The notes under the pieces: generated by a model
What the model was told of the DNA's origin: nothing
The model's database searches: none
The model's input: the letters and a program-made list of their open reading frames with translations, nothing else
Position numbers and translations under genes: made by a program
Part shown: piece after piece, positions 36,726 through 42,724 of the stretch
Numbering within the stretch: the first letter of the stretch is position 1
Layout of the letters: every line of letters begins with the position of its first letter
Assembly (NCBI GenBank): GCA_905234505.1
Contig: CAJOIA010000002.1
Span: 1-42,724 of the forward strand
Length of the DNA stretch: 42,724 bases
Source: an uncultured Selenomonadaceae bacterium
Lineage (GTDB): Bacteria; Bacillota; Negativicutes; Selenomonadales; Selenomonadaceae
Reading direction: 5' to 3'

Positions 36726-37304
36726 TTATTTTTTACCGGTAGAGCCGCGCTTTGTAAGTGGAATGCCCTTCGCGCAGAGCGGGCAATTTTCCGGCTCGTA
36801 AGTTTCAACGTTCATATGAAGGAGCGCAAAACTCGGTACGCCGCCGAAATCAGCCTTGCCGCCCGACCTATCCACTAACATTGAAACTGCAACCGGCACG
36901 CCGCCAAATTCTTTAACAACGTCTATAACTTCGCGCACAGAGCCGCCCGTCGTTACAACGTCTTCAACAATCAAAACGCGCTCGCCTTCGTGCAAAGTAA
37001 AGCCGCGCCGAAATGTCATTTTGCCATCAACGCGCTCAGTGAAAATCGCTCGCGTCCCCAACGCTTTGCCGGTTTCATGCGCTAAAATTATTCCGCCAGT
37101 CACCGGTCCAACAACTGTCTCAATCTGTGCGTCCTGGAAATGTTCAGCCATTGCGCAGCAAAGTTTTTCGGTCATTTTCGGGTGCTGGAGAACATTAAAT
37201 TTTTCTACGTAGTGCGGTGAATGTTTTCCCGACGTAAGTTTAAAATGTCCATTCATAATTGCGCCCGTCTCGACGAGCATATCATAAACTTCTTTTTCAG
37301 TCAT
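36726..37304 (-). CDS. pyrE: Orotate phosphoribosyltransferase PyrE
   Basis: PyrE joins orotate to PRPP to give OMP. The 192-residue protein has the PRPP motif VLIVEDVVTTGGSV near residue 112-125, the LTSGKHSPHYVEKF start and the FRRGFTLHEGE loop. GAGGTG precedes the ATG and the gap after pyrF is 2 bp. The C-terminal tail carries a CxxC pair (CPLCAKG) as seen in the longer PyrE form of some Firmicutes. It is the last gene of the operon. Confidence 0.95.
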   Translation of the reverse strand: MTEKEVYDMLVETGAIMNGHFKLTSGKHSPHYVEKFNVLQHPKMTEKLCCAMAEHFQDAQIETVVGPVTGGIILAHETGKALGTRAIFTERVDGKMTFRRGFTLHEGERVLIVEDVVTTGGSVREVIDVVKEFGGVPVAVSMLVDRSGGKADFGGVPSFALLHMNVETYEPENCPLCAKGIPLTKRGSTGKK

Positions 37305-37306
37305 AA

Positions 37307-38011
37307 TTACACCTCGCTCATTTCAGCTAAGATTTTTTCGGCGGCAAGTTTCGGATTTTCGGCTGCGCGAATTGGTCTGCCAATAACTAAATAATTTGCG
37401 CCATTTTTTAACGCGGCGGCTGGCGTAGAAATGCGGCTTTGATCGTTGATATCGCTGCCTGCCGGACGAATGCCAGGCGTTACAATCAAAAAGTTTTCAC
37501 CGCAATTTTCGCGAATAAGTTTAGCCTCTTGCGGCGACGCCACAACGCCATCAAGTCCGGCGTCCTGCGCGAGTTTTGCAAATTGAACAACTTGCTCGGA
37601 AATTTTCAGTGCCCCGCACCATTCAGCTTGATTTATGCTTGTCAAAACTGTTATGGCAATTAATTTTGGCTTGACAATTCCGCGTTTAGCGGATTCTTCG
37701 CGCAGTGCTTCAGCCGCATTTTTCATCATTGTAAAGCCGCCCGCCGCGTGAACATTTAAAATATCCGCGCCCAAATTCATAAGTGAGCACAAACCGCCCG
37801 CTACTGTATTTGGTATGTCGTGCAGTTTCAAATCCAAGAAAACTTTTTTGTTTTGAGACTTCAGCCAATCTATAACGCCAGCACCGACGCTATAAAAAAG
37901 TTCCATACCAACCTTGTAAAAAATCACGCTGTCGCCCAAATCATTTACCAAATTCTTAACTTCGTCGAACTTGTGAAAATCCAGCGCTACAATCAATCTT
38001 TCGTCAGCCAT
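37307..38011 (-). CDS. pyrF: Orotidine 5'-phosphate decarboxylase PyrF
   Basis: PyrF decarboxylates OMP to UMP, the last step of the pathway. The 234-residue TIM-barrel protein begins LIVALDFHKFDEV, contains the catalytic DLKLHDIPNTV, and ends with the phosphate-binding VIGRPIRAAENP segment. It starts 12 bp after the second GTPase gene, so those genes are within the pyr transcript. Confidence 0.96.
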   Translation of the reverse strand: MADERLIVALDFHKFDEVKNLVNDLGDSVIFYKVGMELFYSVGAGVIDWLKSQNKKVFLDLKLHDIPNTVAGGLCSLMNLGADILNVHAAGGFTMMKNAAEALREESAKRGIVKPKLIAITVLTSINQAEWCGALKISEQVVQFAKLAQDAGLDGVVASPQEAKLIRENCGENFLIVTPGIRPAGSDINDQSRISTPAAALKNGANYLVIGRPIRAAENPKLAAEKILAEMSEV

Positions 38012-38023
38012 TTAAACCACCGC

Positions 38024-39085
38024 CTATTTGCCCTCAACAAAATTTTCAAGATAAAGCTCCGCGACCTTGTAACAATCATCAATATAGTTTTCGCCCAATT
38101 TTTTAATCAAATAATAGCCGCTAATCGCAGAAATCGCCCAGCCCGCTATCGGCACGTACTTAACAACTTCCTTGCTGACAAAGCGCGCGCCGACCTTTTC
38201 AATCAATTTCATAACGCCGCTCTTGGTAACATAATTAAACACAGTCTTAAGCGCAGGCGTCATAATTTCATATTTCGTTAACGCCGCCTGCACTTCCTCA
38301 TTAATGCCAAAAGTTTTGCGAACCTCAAAAAACATATCGGTAATAACGCCCAAATCTACCGCCACGTCCACGCCTGGAATCGGATTAATCGCATTAGCCG
38401 CCCCGCCCCACGCATAATAATTCAACTGCTCAAGGCAAAGTTTTTTCTTATTGTCTAAATCTTGCTTGGAAGTCGCTTTAAATTCAAAAACCAGCTTAGA
38501 CTTTTTAACTTTCGGCAAATCTGAATTAAAAATATCTCGCTTAAGCTCTTCAATGCCGGTATTTTTTCTGCAGCTCGTGAAATAAATTTTTTCCGAATAA
38601 CTTTTCATTTTGCTTGAAACGTCCTGCGCGATTTCCTCTTCAAGCCGCTCTAAAGTTTTAAAATCATCCCAAATCTGATCTTCCTTGTTTCGCACAATAA
38701 AAAATGGATGTTCGCGTTCGTCACGCCAGCGCTTGAGATTTTCAAATAAAACCGCGTCAGAATCGTGCAATTTCCCGTCGAATACGAATAAATACAAATC
38801 GTACTGTTCCGGCTGAAATTTTTTAAGCCATTGCTCAATCGGAAACATATTCGTGCCGTAGCCTGGCAGGTCAACAATCGTCAAATTATTATCAAGTTTT
38901 CGCTTCTGAACTTCAACCGTTGTATCAGTCTGAACGCCAACTTCAAAAATTTCTCTGCCAATTAATTTGTTAATCAAACTGGATTTTCCCGCGCCTGGTT
39001 GCCCAATCAGCGCAATGGTTACCGAAACTTCACGCTCATGAACTTTTTCCTCATAATCGCGCTTTAAATCTTCAGCCAAACTCAT
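38024..39085 (-). CDS. IRG-like (interferon-inducible GTPase type) GTPase, paralogue 2
   Basis: The 353-residue protein begins with a basic coiled helix, then a G domain: P-loop GQPGAGKSS (residues 28-36), G3 DLPGYG, and G4 RNKEDQ. The stretch from DLPGYGT through FQPEQYDLYLFVFDG to FIVRNKED follows the pattern of vertebrate immunity-related GTPases (DLPGxGTxxF...YDxFxxx...FxVRxKxD). The C-terminal half is helical with membrane-prone segments (NPIPGVDVAVDLGV, VPIAGWAISAISGYYLI). Proteins of this type oligomerise on membranes. GGGGGA precedes the ATG. It may form a pair with paralogue 1; the role in a pyrimidine operon is unknown. Confidence 0.85.
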   Translation of the reverse strand: MSLAEDLKRDYEEKVHEREVSVTIALIGQPGAGKSSLINKLIGREIFEVGVQTDTTVEVQKRKLDNNLTIVDLPGYGTNMFPIEQWLKKFQPEQYDLYLFVFDGKLHDSDAVLFENLKRWRDEREHPFFIVRNKEDQIWDDFKTLERLEEEIAQDVSSKMKSYSEKIYFTSCRKNTGIEELKRDIFNSDLPKVKKSKLVFEFKATSKQDLDNKKKLCLEQLNYYAWGGAANAINPIPGVDVAVDLGVITDMFFEVRKTFGINEEVQAALTKYEIMTPALKTVFNYVTKSGVMKLIEKVGARFVSKEVVKYVPIAGWAISAISGYYLIKKLGENYIDDCYKVAELYLENFVEGK

Positions 39086-39439
39086 AAAACATTCCCCCTA
39101 ATTTTTTGCGGCAAGTAGCGGAATTTCATTTTCAAACTCGGAAATTTTTTCAGCAATTAATTTGTCCATAACGCCGCCCGCGAAATTAAAACAATCTTCA
39201 CTGTAACTTTTGCCCGCATTACCCAATCAGCGCAATGGTTACCGAAACTTCACGCTCATGAACTTTTTCCTCGTAATCGCGCTTTAAATCTTCAGCCAAA
39301 CTCATAAAACATTCCCCCTAATTTTTTGCGGCAAGTAGCGGAATTTCATTTTCAAACTCGGAAATTTTTTCGGCAATTAATTTGTCCATAACGCCGCCCG
39401 CGAAATTAAAACAATCTTCACTGTAACTTTTGCCCGCAT
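39002..39439. repeat. 218-bp tandem direct duplication at the GTPase gene junction
   Basis: Copies at 39002-39219 and 39222-39439 differ at only two positions I can find (CTCATAATC against CTCGTAATC, and TTTTCAGC against TTTTCGGC). Each copy spans the first 28 codons and ribosome binding site of the downstream GTPase gene plus the last ~40 codons of the upstream one. Two bases (TA) separate them. The near identity points to a recent event, or to an assembly artefact. Confidence 0.95.
39219..39305 (-). pseudogene. 28-codon minigene left by the duplication (5' end of GTPase 2)
   Basis: Inside the second repeat copy the start and GGGGGA ribosome binding site of GTPase 2 are intact, so translation would give MSLAEDLKRDYEEK and so on up to the first Gly of the P-loop (residue 28). 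The next codon, formed by the junction bases, is TAA. It is therefore a truncated duplicate that could still be translated; no function is implied. Confidence 0.85.
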
Positions 39440-40397
39440 AATCCGCCATTTTGTAGCCAATCGCTGCCGCCGCCGCTTGTCCGACAAATGGAATATATTT
39501 CGCCACGCTCTTAACCATCTGCCGCCCCGCAAAATTTTTCAGCAAAATTGCAATGCCCTCTTTAGTCAAAAGCTCCAGCAATTTTTTAGCTATCGGCAAC
39601 GCGTAATATTTCATATCGCCTTCTTCAATGTCGTAGCATTTGCGAATATCGGCGAACATTTTAAAATAAATTCCTAAATCCACCGCGACATCGGCGCCTA
39701 GAATCGGATTGAGCCCATTGACGCCCGCAATTTTATTGTACGTCGAAATTTCGTTTTCTGCGCGAGAATTGGCTGAGGCAAGATATTCATTTTTGGCTTT
39801 AATGTAAGCCGTGCGAAGTTTGGTCTGCCACAGCGTTTTAAAATCAGTCTGAATCAAAGCCGCGCGCAATTCGTCAATGCCGGTTTTTTCTCTGCCGCAG
39901 TCCACAAAAAATAATTCACTGGTATCAAGCCCGCTAGTTTTGGCGGAAATATCTGCGCGAATTTTATTTTTATCGGCGTCGGTTTCAATATCGGTGCAAT
40001 GGTTTCTCACCAAAAAAATTGGGTGGCGTCGCTCAAGATTGTAATTTTTCAGCTCAATAAAAAGTCGGCTGTCTTCCTCGTGCAATTTGCCGCGAAATAC
40101 AAAAATATAAACGTCGTACTGTTGCGGCTGAAATTTATCGCGCCAATCATCGAACTTAAACATTTTCGTACCATAACCTGGCAGGTCGACGATTTTTTGA
40201 AAATTATATTCGTATTCGTTAGCCTCAGTGGTAACGTCAGTAGTTTGACCGGTTTCAGCAACGCGTTTACCGAGCAGATTATTAATCAAGCTGGATTTTC
40301 CCGCGCCAGGTTGACCTACCACCGCAATTCTCGCATAAGCGCCTTCATTTTTTTTAATATCGTCCAAAATGCTGTTGAATCTGTCTTTCAGTGCCAT
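39318..40397 (-). CDS. IRG-like GTPase, paralogue 1
   Basis: The 359-residue protein shares the plan of its neighbour: P-loop GQPGAGKSS near residue 28, TTDVTTEANEY switch region, G3 DLPGYGTKMF, then FQPQQYDVYIFVFRGKLHEED and FLVRN. The G4 motif, NKED in paralogue 2, reads NHCTD here, so the base-specificity Lys is missing. The C-terminal half again has LNPILGADVAVDLGIYFKMF and an Ala/Gly-rich hydrophobic stretch (VGQAAAAAIGYKMA). The start codon directly abuts the pyrD stop. A paired arrangement of one canonical and one altered GTPase suggests a hetero-oligomer, by inference. Confidence 0.83.
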   Translation of the reverse strand: MALKDRFNSILDDIKKNEGAYARIAVVGQPGAGKSSLINNLLGKRVAETGQTTDVTTEANEYEYNFQKIVDLPGYGTKMFKFDDWRDKFQPQQYDVYIFVFRGKLHEEDSRLFIELKNYNLERRHPIFLVRNHCTDIETDADKNKIRADISAKTSGLDTSELFFVDCGREKTGIDELRAALIQTDFKTLWQTKLRTAYIKAKNEYLASANSRAENEISTYNKIAGVNGLNPILGADVAVDLGIYFKMFADIRKCYDIEEGDMKYYALPIAKKLLELLTKEGIAILLKNFAGRQMVKSVAKYIPFVGQAAAAAIGYKMADYAGKSYSEDCFNFAGGVMDKLIAEKISEFENEIPLLAAKN

Positions 40398-41303
40398 TTA
40401 AATTTTCACCTGTCCAATAATCTCGCGCAGATTTAAATTGCGGCTCGCTAAATAATTTTCCAGATCGTTAGCAATTTCCATAGTGACCGCCGGATTAGCA
40501 AAATTCGCCGTGCCAACTGCAACCGCCGACGCTCCCGCTAAGAAAAATTCAATAGCATCAGCCGCCGTGCAAATTCCGCCCATGCCAATTACCGGAACTT
40601 TGACTGCCTGCGCGACTTGATAAACCATACGCACCGCAACCGGCTTAACTGCGCCGCCACTAAGCCCGCCCGTTATATTTCCAAGCGTCGGCTTCCACGT
40701 GTTAATATTAATTTCCATACCCATCAGCGTATTAATTAGCGAAATGCAATCTGCGCCCGCGCTTTCAACAGAGCGCGCAATTTCGGTAATATCAGTAACA
40801 TTCGGACTGAGTTTCACTATAACCGGCTTGCTTGTAAATTTTTTCGCAGTCGAAGTAACTTCCGCCGCAGCCTTTGGATTCGTGCCGAAAATTATTCCGC
40901 CGTCTTTTACATTCGGGCAAGAAATATTTAATTCAATCGCCGCCACGCCGTCCACATTTAAAAGTTTCGCCAGCTCGCCGTAATCTTCAACGCTACTGCC
41001 GCTGATATTTACAATGACATTCATTTTGTTTTTAATGCGCGGCAAAATTTCAATTAAAAATTTCTCGACGCCTGGATTTTCTAAGCCAATGCAATTCAGC
41101 ATACCCGCCGGAGTTTCAGTAATTCGCACGCCTTTATTACCTGCGCGCGGCTTCAAAGTAATGCATTTCACCATAACGCCGCCGAGTTTCTCAAGGTCGA
41201 CAAAATCAGCAAATTCTTCGCCAAAGCCAAATGTCCCCGACGCCGCTAAGATTGGCGTGTTCATCTTTATTCCGCAAATTTCAGTTTTCAGTCGCTCGCT
41301 CAT
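40398..41303 (-). CDS. pyrD: Dihydroorotate dehydrogenase B, catalytic subunit PyrD
   Basis: PyrD oxidises dihydroorotate to orotate with FMN and passes electrons via PyrK to NAD+. The 301-residue TIM barrel has ILAASGTFGFGEE, the catalytic Cys in NISCPNVKDGG (class 1B uses Cys), and the FMN phosphate motifs GLSGGAVKP and GMGGI. GAGG precedes the ATG. A DUF4145-like gene separates it from pyrK, which is unusual, since the two subunits are normally adjacent. Confidence 0.96.
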   Translation of the reverse strand: MSERLKTEICGIKMNTPILAASGTFGFGEEFADFVDLEKLGGVMVKCITLKPRAGNKGVRITETPAGMLNCIGLENPGVEKFLIEILPRIKNKMNVIVNISGSSVEDYGELAKLLNVDGVAAIELNISCPNVKDGGIIFGTNPKAAAEVTSTAKKFTSKPVIVKLSPNVTDITEIARSVESAGADCISLINTLMGMEININTWKPTLGNITGGLSGGAVKPVAVRMVYQVAQAVKVPVIGMGGICTAADAIEFFLAGASAVAVGTANFANPAVTMEIANDLENYLASRNLNLREIIGQVKI

Positions 41304-41318
41304 AAATTTTTCCTCAAC

Positions 41319-41825
41319 TTATTTTTTCGTGATAAAAAATGCTGCCAACGCGCCCAAAAGACCGACGCCAGCATATTTCGCCGCCTTCGCCCAAAAAGAT
41401 TCTTCAACCGGAATATCCTCTGCATTAAAACGTCGCGGCTGATAATTTTTGCTATAACGTTTATCAATCCATTGCACAAAATCAAAAAGGTTGCTCAAAC
41501 AGCGTACGCCTTCTTCAACATTAAAATCTTTTTCGTTGTGAAGAGCCTGGTTGCCCAATTTGCGGCAGTAATGAATTTTGCTAAGGAGACTTTGACCGAC
41601 GGCATTTTCAAAAGTCTTATTTGAAATGAGCGCGAAAAAATCATTGCTTGAGGATTTGAATTTTTTATCACGGCTATAAAGCCATTTCACGCTAGCTTCA
41701 AACGCCGATCTCACAAGTTTAACGCAAGCATTCGGCGATTTTTCAAATGACTCTTCGGCTTCGATACAATCATTGGCAAAATCGCTAAATTCCGGTTTGT
41801 CCTTGAGAAATGTAAAATTAGCCAC
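41319..41825 (-). CDS. DUF4145-like protein with C-terminal membrane anchor
   Basis: The 168-residue product starts at GTG with GGTGA upstream. Residues about 1-120 form an all-helical domain with FANDCIEAEESFEKSPNACVKLVRSAFEASVKWLY and YCRKLGNQALHNEKDF, which matches the pattern of DUF4145, a domain also attached to type I restriction subunits. The last 20 residues are hydrophobic (YAGVGLLGALAAFFITKK) and predict a tail anchor. It lies between pyrK and pyrD, 15 bp from each. Its function is unknown; it may belong with the IRG-like GTPases rather than with pyrimidine synthesis. Confidence 0.68.
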   Translation of the reverse strand: MANFTFLKDKPEFSDFANDCIEAEESFEKSPNACVKLVRSAFEASVKWLYSRDKKFKSSSNDFFALISNKTFENAVGQSLLSKIHYCRKLGNQALHNEKDFNVEEGVRCLSNLFDFVQWIDKRYSKNYQPRRFNAEDIPVEESFWAKAAKYAGVGLLGALAAFFITKK

Positions 41826-41840
41826 AATGTCACCAACTTT

Positions 41841-42587
41841 CTATGAAAAAACCGCGCGAGCTTCGAAAATTGGTCCGTCCTTGCAAACTTTTTTTCTGCC
41901 GCTGGCGGTATCAATCGAACAACTAAGACACGCGCCTAATCCGCAAGCCATCCGTCGCTCAAGCGAAACATAGCACGGCAAATTATTTTCTTCAGCAATT
42001 TTGTAAACGCTGCGCATCATAATTTCCGGACCGCACGTATAAATCGCCGCGTAATTATCATATTCAAGCACTTCAGGCAAAAGGCTTGTCACGAAACCGA
42101 GACTGCCAAAACTGCCGTCGTCTGTCGTTATGTAAATTCTATCAACTTCTGCGCGAAATTCTTTAATCCAAAAATCGACTTCGCTTTTATTTTTGCCGCC
42201 CATTAAAACATCAGCCTCAATTTTTTCAGCCACGCTAAGAAGCGGCGCCAGTCCCATACCACCGCCAACAAGCAAAATTCGCCCGCTAATATTAGTGTCA
42301 AAACCGTTGCCCAACGCACCCAAAATATTCAAATGCTCGCCAGTTTTTTTAGTGGACAAAATTTCAGTGCCCTTGCCAATAACGCGGTAAAAAATTTTAA
42401 CCATGCCATTTTTAGCAGAGGCAATACCGAGCGGGCGGCGCAATGTAAATTCGTCTGAAACTTTTACTTGAACAAATTGACCGGCTTTGGCTATTTGCGA
42501 AAGTTCCGGCGCGGCTACTTCCAGCTTGAAAATATTTGCCGATACTTCAGCGTTTGAAATTATTTCTGTATCAAAAATTTTAAGCAT
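41841..42587 (-). CDS. pyrK: Dihydroorotate dehydrogenase B electron transfer subunit PyrK
   Basis: PyrK carries FAD and a [2Fe-2S] cluster and moves electrons from PyrD to NAD+. I use the second Met (MLKIFDTEI) because the weak GGCGG site is better spaced for it; 248 residues. The FAD site RRPLGIAS, the NAD segment GGGMGLAPLLS, and the cluster Cys residues in CGLGACLSC with a later Cys before KDGPIF are all present. It overlaps the end of the upstream partial gene by 8 bp. Confidence 0.95.
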   Translation of the reverse strand: MLKIFDTEIISNAEVSANIFKLEVAAPELSQIAKAGQFVQVKVSDEFTLRRPLGIASAKNGMVKIFYRVIGKGTEILSTKKTGEHLNILGALGNGFDTNISGRILLVGGGMGLAPLLSVAEKIEADVLMGGKNKSEVDFWIKEFRAEVDRIYITTDDGSFGSLGFVTSLLPEVLEYDNYAAIYTCGPEIMMRSVYKIAEENNLPCYVSLERRMACGLGACLSCSIDTASGRKKVCKDGPIFEARAVFS

Positions 42588-42724
42588 TGTCATTCGCCGC
42601 CGGTTTACGTCTAGGATTTACGCGCTTAAATTGGCGCATTTCTTCTTCAGTGAGTTCGGGAAATTCTTCATCAAAAACGATAGGACGATTTTTAAGGGCT
42701 TGGATTCTTGCAATTTGTTCGGGC
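42580..42724 (-). CDS. C-terminal end of an unknown small protein (runs off the window)
   Basis: The open frame ends in TAA and encodes 47 visible residues: PEQIARIQALKNRP, a short acidic stretch (DEEFPELTEEEMRQ) and a basic tail (RVNPRRKPAANDNA). The ORF track omits it. The pattern resembles BrnA-type and similar small antitoxins (IxALKxRP ... PELTxEE), but the beginning is missing and I cannot confirm this. It overlaps pyrK by 8 bp, so it is probably co-transcribed with the pyr genes. Confidence 0.5.
   Translation of the reverse strand, partial: PEQIARIQALKNRPIVFDEEFPELTEEEMRQFKRVNPRRKPAANDNA

Follow-up and report, generated by a model that had tools for sequence, protein, structure and literature searches.

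Tandem IRG-like GTPase genes inside the pyrimidine operon of an uncultured Selenomonadaceae bacterium

The presence of two paralogous GTPase genes between pyrD and pyrF in an uncultured Selenomonadaceae bacterium raises the question of which GTPase family they belong to, what such a pair might do in the cell, and whether its location among genes of pyrimidine synthesis has any bearing on its function. The window, that is, the whole 42,724-nucleotide stretch of contig CAJOIA010000002.1 that was analysed, has the following genes and features at the locus.

41841..42593, minus strand: pyrK, dihydroorotate dehydrogenase electron transfer subunit (NCBIfam PRK00054.1-3, 232.1 bits)
41319..41825, minus strand: DUF4145 gene between pyrK and pyrD (Pfam DUF4145, 36.9 bits)
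40398..41303, minus strand: pyrD, dihydroorotate dehydrogenase, the upstream neighbour (NCBIfam PRK07259, 409.8 bits)
39318..40397, minus strand: gene A, IRG-like GTPase, the upstream partner (ORF, 359 aa; best PDB match IRGB10)
38999..39438, no strand: 220-bp tandem duplication over the A-B junction (copies 38999-39218 and 39219-39438, 3 mismatches)
38024..39085, minus strand: gene B, IRG-like GTPase, the downstream partner (ORF, 353 aa; best PDB match IRGB10, E=3e-14)
37307..38011, minus strand: pyrF, orotidine-5'-phosphate decarboxylase, the downstream neighbour (NCBIfam PRK00230, 287.1 bits)
36726..37304, minus strand: pyrE, orotate phosphoribosyltransferase (NCBIfam TIGR01367, 208.5 bits)

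The locus and its place among the pyr genes

The arrangement given by an earlier, sequence-only reading of the locus is accurate: two paralogues, 37% identical to each other, lie between pyrD and pyrF on the same strand, with A starting right after the pyrD stop codon (a gap of 0 bp) and B separated from pyrF by 12 bp, a spacing from which it is plausible that both are part of one transcript with the pyr genes. The gap between A and B themselves measures 232 bp because of the tandem duplication of the 220-bp junction stretch, which disrupts neither gene and may be either real or the product of an assembly of two strain variants. It is absent from the corresponding loci of two other species, L034 from a reindeer metagenome assembly and L035 from red deer, where the A-B gap is only 12 bp. 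Across the three species with a pyr-linked pair synonymous divergence is high, and the Ka/Ks of A and B is 0.05-0.10, with equally low values for the pyr genes, so both genes are evidently maintained by purifying selection. The low Ka/Ks, the Pfam IIGP scores given below and the conservation in separate assemblies together place the two genes beyond chance.

The DUF4145 gene weakly matches type I restriction-like PADLOC models. Copies about 55-58% identical occupy the same site in three loci of the source genus (L139, L148 and L170), it is absent from L034 and L035, and it is probably a further accessory gene of the operon, unrelated to A and B.

The suggestion that expression of the pair is tied to nucleotide supply by design is not supported, since the pyr linkage is limited to three close rumen Selenomonadaceae, namely the source genome and the genomes G005 (L034) and G203 (L035), and since pairs are elsewhere or missing in other genomes and pyr sites without them exist; as a general functional link it was rejected. 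Within the same genus, L139, L148 and L170 have the order pyrK-DUF4145-pyrD-pyrF-pyrE with no inserted GTPases, in most other genomes pyrFE is not adjacent to pyrD, the pair of G209 sits away from the pyr genes, and some members have no pair at all. Other accessory genes also interrupt pyrK-pyrD and pyrF-pyrE in relatives. Given the empty sites, the pairs found elsewhere and the other inserted genes, the pyr location looks opportunistic.

A functional meaning of the location, with the pair co-regulated with pyrimidine nucleotides or sensing them, and with A perhaps binding a nucleotide other than guanine, would fit the tight same-strand spacing, the retention of the pair in three species despite their high synonymous divergence, and the degenerate G4 motif of A described below. 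However, other genomes have pairs with the same A-type G4 outside the pyr loci, the pyr loci of L139, L148 and L170 do without the GTPases, unrelated genes interrupt the pyr operons of the genus at pyrK-pyrD and pyrF-pyrE, and an Rfam scan of the pyr loci of three relatives for a leader gave nothing at the gathering threshold. We therefore consider such a link very improbable.

The pyrF-pyrE junction of L138, L144, L165, L170, L173 and L175 carries various accessory genes; judged by eye, their products resemble a GIY-YIG nuclease, a carboxypeptidase-like protein, an acetyltransferase with a RelE-like protein, and a RecT-like protein.

Relationship to IRG proteins and the C-terminal domain

Both proteins contain the P-loop GQPGAGKSS and the G3 motif DLPGYGT that had been read from the sequence, and the two differ in G4. 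Their nucleotide-binding motifs are located as follows.

40290..40316, minus strand: P-loop GQPGAGKSS of A, residues 28-36 (alignments)
40167..40187, minus strand: G3 DLPGYGT of A, residues 71-77, with a hydrophobic residue at the position of Ras Gln61 (alignments)
39993..40004, minus strand: degenerate G4 of A, NHCT replacing NKxD (motif table, tree)
38978..39004, minus strand: P-loop GQPGAGKSS of B, residues 28-36 (alignments)
38852..38872, minus strand: G3 DLPGYGT of B, residues 72-78 (alignments)
38678..38689, minus strand: canonical G4 NKED of B, residues 133-136 (motif table)

The G1 and G3 motifs of both proteins are thus of IRG type, with a hydrophobic residue in place of the catalytic Gln, a feature that Bekpen et al. 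in 2005 treated as shared but not diagnostic (PMC1297648). The canonical G4, [N/T]KxD, is found in B, whereas A has NHCT.

Kinship with the IRGs, also proposed in the sequence-only reading, was borne out by a search with PF05049 (IIGP), which gave 55.0 bits for B and 46.7 bits for A at a cut-off of 24. MMR_HSR1, the generic Pfam model of the G domain, scores slightly higher (59.5 bits for B, 55.8 for A), and the Era model on B alone reaches 55.2 bits, a near tie with IIGP; with single sequences scoring so nearly equal, one sequence cannot decide the family. A family profile built from 24 members finds the mouse IRGs IRGB10 (E=4e-29), Irgb6 (4e-26) and Irga6 (2e-23) over most of its length, while the best non-IRG match, EngA/Der (4e-18), covers the G domain only. 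In bits, the full profile places IRGB10 ahead of EngA/Der by 36 (105 vs 69). When the profile is restricted to the G domain, the scores are 83 for IRGB10, 71 for Irgb6 and 72.7 for Irga6 vs 73.7 for EngA, so that the three IRGs gain 14-24 bits from the C-terminal half and EngA loses 5.

These comparisons bear directly on the possibility that A and B are ribosome-assembly GTPases of the Era/EngA type, for which the score of the Era model on B, taken as a single sequence, is the argument. The scores of B (55.2 of 237 for Era, 53.9 of 124 for YsxC, and 49.9 of 307) nevertheless all lie far below the Era/EngA/YsxC cut-offs, a KH-type RNA domain is absent among the Pfam matches, and the family profile ranks the IRGs first over its whole length, only IRGs aligning past the G domain. 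A ribosomal function appears scarcely credible on these grounds, and the Era/EngA matches are not the stronger ones.

AlphaFold models of the two proteins have mean pLDDT values of 77 and 73; in Foldseek searches of the PDB with both models, ranks 1-36 are all IRGs, followed by mitofusins and, for A, also by BDLP. The G domain of both proteins is of IRG type. The full IRG fold is not demonstrated, since the global TM-scores of both models to IRGs are only 0.3-0.4. The C-terminal profile, when used alone against the PDB, retrieves no IRG; what it does retrieve are TALE-repeat artefacts and matches without significance.

Two hydrophobic segments are found in the C-terminal half of B.

38327..38383, minus strand: hydrophobic segment 1 of B, residues 235-253 (hydropathy; HMM alignment to IRGB10 putative membrane region 1)
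38111..38167, minus strand: hydrophobic segment 2 of B, residues 307-325 (hydropathy; HMM alignment to IRGB10 putative membrane region 2)

Since two putative transmembrane regions have been named for IRGB10 (PMC7815755), the alignment of these segments with them upholds one half of the earlier description of the C-terminal halves as membrane-prone. The other half is not upheld, as no 19-residue window reaches the usual transmembrane score (maximum hydropathy 1.25), which makes a peripheral insertion likelier than a spanning helix.

The C-terminal domain resembles the GTPase-associated domain DUF697 (PF05128), weakly, in 17 of the 24 family members; A (26.5 bits) and B (20.5 bits) both stay under the Pfam cut-off of 27.7, and a distant relative, L096, passes the cut-offs of both DUF697 (29.5 bits) and IIGP. 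The family therefore bridges IIGP and DUF697, and homology of its C-terminal domain to the helical domain of IRGs is suggested by the profile alignments rather than proved. Compared with the immunity-related GTPases of mammals, which attack the membranes of microbes (IRGs, also known as p47 or IIGP1 proteins; PF05049; here IRGB10, Irgb6 and Irga6), A and B are also shorter, at about 355 vs about 410 residues, and their C-terminal domain, taken on its own, resembles DUF697. In a genome of the source genus, a stand-alone DUF697-like C-terminal domain protein of 154 aa, without a G domain, is encoded at L135:2697-3161 and adjoins a gene resembling alaS.

Bacterial IRG-like GTPases, for example in cyanobacteria, were already noted by Bekpen et al. 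in 2005 (PMC1297648), and appear to be of the same kind as A and B, having IRG-like G domains; their phylogenetic relation to the vertebrate IRGs was unclear, and they could be called only reminiscent of them. Putative GTPases alone are named there and, as far as the available part of that paper goes, neither operons with such pairs nor an asymmetry of motifs nor copies in phages are described. Public annotation labels such relatives plainly as GTPase, and a search of the open-access literature found no functional study of bacterial PF05049 proteins.

Distribution, origin and asymmetry of the pair

A class-wide search found the IIGP cut-off passed in 40 of 381 genomes of the host class, and a sample of 399 genomes of the phylum gave only two matches, both from Selenomonadaceae; the distribution beyond the phylum rests on plasmid and viral records. 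Most full-strength matches are tandem, with A upstream of B, and occur in many unrelated neighbourhoods. The pair, with this fixed gene order, spans two bacterial families, the Selenomonadaceae and a second one, and its presence within genera is patchy. Single genes are found in genus g34 and in G050. The single-copy B-type genes come from one genus and nine genomes, in part from fragmentary contigs, and suggest that A is not needed everywhere.

In the phylogenetic tree the Selenomonadaceae-type A and B group together, apart from A' and B' of the second family, and constraint tests that force A with either A' or B' are rejected (p=0.0015 each). With the usual caution about long branches, the pairs thus seem to have arisen twice, by independent duplications, which in turn suggests that pairing has been selected for. 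One member of the second family, G063 (genus g53), carries a pair of the Selenomonadaceae type, which suggests that the two genes were transferred together.

The asymmetry between the partners is consistent. All ten A-clade proteins lack the Asp of the G4 NKxD motif, and in nine (NHCx or NHGx) the Lys is missing too. The 20 B-clade members that have the motif all retain the Asp, with Phe replacing Lys in four. Both partners of the second family keep NKxD, and the difference is instead in G3, which reads DLPGYD in A' (DLPGYN in one case) and DLPGYG in B'. The arrangement loosely recalls the regulator-effector sets of animal IRGs, in which GMS proteins, whose P-loop Lys is altered, hold GKS proteins in check via the catalytic interface (PMC3042988). 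The analogy is our own, and the altered motif is a different one, G4 in A and the P-loop, with Lys changed to Met, in the GMS IRGs.

Pairs of the second family (L097, L098, L099, L101-L105, L108 and L109) are often near genes for an asparaginase, an M48 peptidase whose start resembles a signal peptide, and an M20 peptidase. Another cassette, with two GTPases of about 330-359 and 228-232 aa, is present in L129, L130, L132 and L133, in some of them followed by a long protein of up to 1392 aa that appears kinase-like by eye, and L131 has the GTPases only. GTPase matches of 22-42 bits in L129-L134 belong to other families and were left out.

A possible membrane-acting module

The reading that we prefer, at a probability of roughly 45%, is that A and B form a membrane-acting module of IRG-type GTPases, with B as the working and A as the regulating partner, that gives protection under phage attack or envelope stress. 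In each protein an IRG-like G domain precedes a helical domain that is related to DUF697 and has two hydrophobic segments. The two proteins would contact each other via their G domains and assemble into a hetero-oligomer at the cytoplasmic face of the inner membrane, where B would bind and hydrolyse GTP, change its shape and insert its hydrophobic segments into the membrane. Without the canonical guanine-specificity motif, A could be a partner that is altered or insensitive to nucleotides and that holds B or sets its timing. The purpose would most likely be protection of the membrane, or of the whole cell, when phages attack or another stress acts on the envelope, and the pyr operon would be a mere host site that supplies transcription. 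The segments aligned with IRGB10 and the phage-borne and BREX-adjacent relatives described below lend some help to a putative membrane or defence role. The analysis establishes the family relationship, the conserved tandem order, the independent origin of the pairs, the asymmetry of their motifs and the purifying selection; the hetero-oligomer, the action on the membrane, regulation by A and the part played in defence or stress are inferred.

Comparable pairs are known among the dynamin-like proteins (Cj-DLP1/2, DynA/DynB, LeoABC), which share with A and B the adjacent genes, the related G domains and a probable action on membranes, and have a different C-terminal domain, A and B being shorter at about 355 aa. 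Among bacterial dynamin-like proteins in general the majority occur in pairs, one of which assembles into a hetero-oligomer (PMC6104087). Assignment of A and B themselves to this group, which would call for a dynamin-type G domain and a long helical trunk with a membrane paddle, was rejected, as their Dynamin_N matches (42.6 and 30.8 bits, cut-off 27) are limited to the P-loop region, their length is only about 355 aa, and IRGs come before BDLP and mitofusins in the Foldseek rankings of the models.

Relatives on mobile elements are mostly single genes, about 30-36% identical. Two viral contigs (L178 and L179) each carry one relative, with IIGP scores of 81.8 and 58.8 bits, inverted between genes for a tail assembly chaperone and a tail protein (PHROGs 313 and 290). 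On a Deinococcus plasmid a relative and then a second GTPase gene lie between brxL/pglZ of a BREX system and DarT/methylase genes, and an Azospirillum plasmid has a single relative in a metabolic setting. Around the pairs of the host class, the neighbours carry mostly metabolic domains. Among 67 neighbouring proteins there is no repeated defence family, the PADLOC matches being isolated single neighbours, and an enrichment of the kind expected of a defence island was not found, which weakens a defence reading.

The extra tail-module gene of the two viral contigs and the BREX-adjacent Deinococcus relative would suit a dedicated phage-exclusion module, spread by phages and islands, that detects infection at the membrane and prevents DNA from entering or progeny from being released. 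Its patchy distribution (40 of 381 genomes in the class, two among 399 in the phylum) and the Selenomonadaceae-type pair in genus g53 of the second family point the same way, and there is a precedent in DynA of B. subtilis, which delays phage lysis (PMC8844932). The metabolic neighbours within the class speak against it, as do the distance of the viral and plasmid relatives and their occurrence as single genes rather than as the pair. The PADLOC matches of B are likewise weak and partial, covering the G domain (residues 59-229 of 601 in LeoBC and 43-113 of 559 in LeoA, proteins that we take to be of Eleos-type defence). Identity of A and B with LeoA or LeoBC themselves was rejected, since neither of these large proteins is matched over its full length. 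On balance such a dedicated exclusion module is possible yet doubtful.

The same neighbourhoods leave room for a housekeeping pair, engaged in dynamin-like membrane repair or curvature and unrelated to phages. Strong purifying selection, the metabolic and partly conserved surroundings in the second family (asparaginase, M48 and M20 peptidases) and the pairing typical of bacterial dynamin-like proteins (PMC6104087) agree with it, while the patchy presence within genera is unlike that of a core function and phage-borne relatives do exist, so that we regard pure housekeeping, too, as rather unlikely. Defence is possible and, as the class neighbours are mostly metabolic with no repeated defence family, is not favoured over general membrane maintenance.

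Beyond the protective membrane module that we prefer, a broader and clearly speculative proposal is a bacterial counterpart of animal IRG defence, in which an active effector and a motif-degenerate regulator would exclude or contain phages by acting on the membrane of the cell itself, pairing would have evolved at least twice in one class, and the single phage relatives would be superinfection-exclusion genes. While IRG-like GTPases in bacteria are already known, the new points are that pairing is convergent, that A has consistently lost G4 and that copies lie in phage tail modules. The pairs are compact candidates for asking whether the membrane attack and the effector-regulator partnership of animal IRGs have bacterial equivalents, and the phage-tail copies allow a direct and easy test in laboratory hosts.

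GTPases encoded on Klebsiella plasmids of about 111 kb (L187:7941-9047), 24% identical, are of the DUF697 type without an IIGP match and were left out of the family. The plasmids themselves carry phage-like genes of nucleotide metabolism and may be phage-plasmids.
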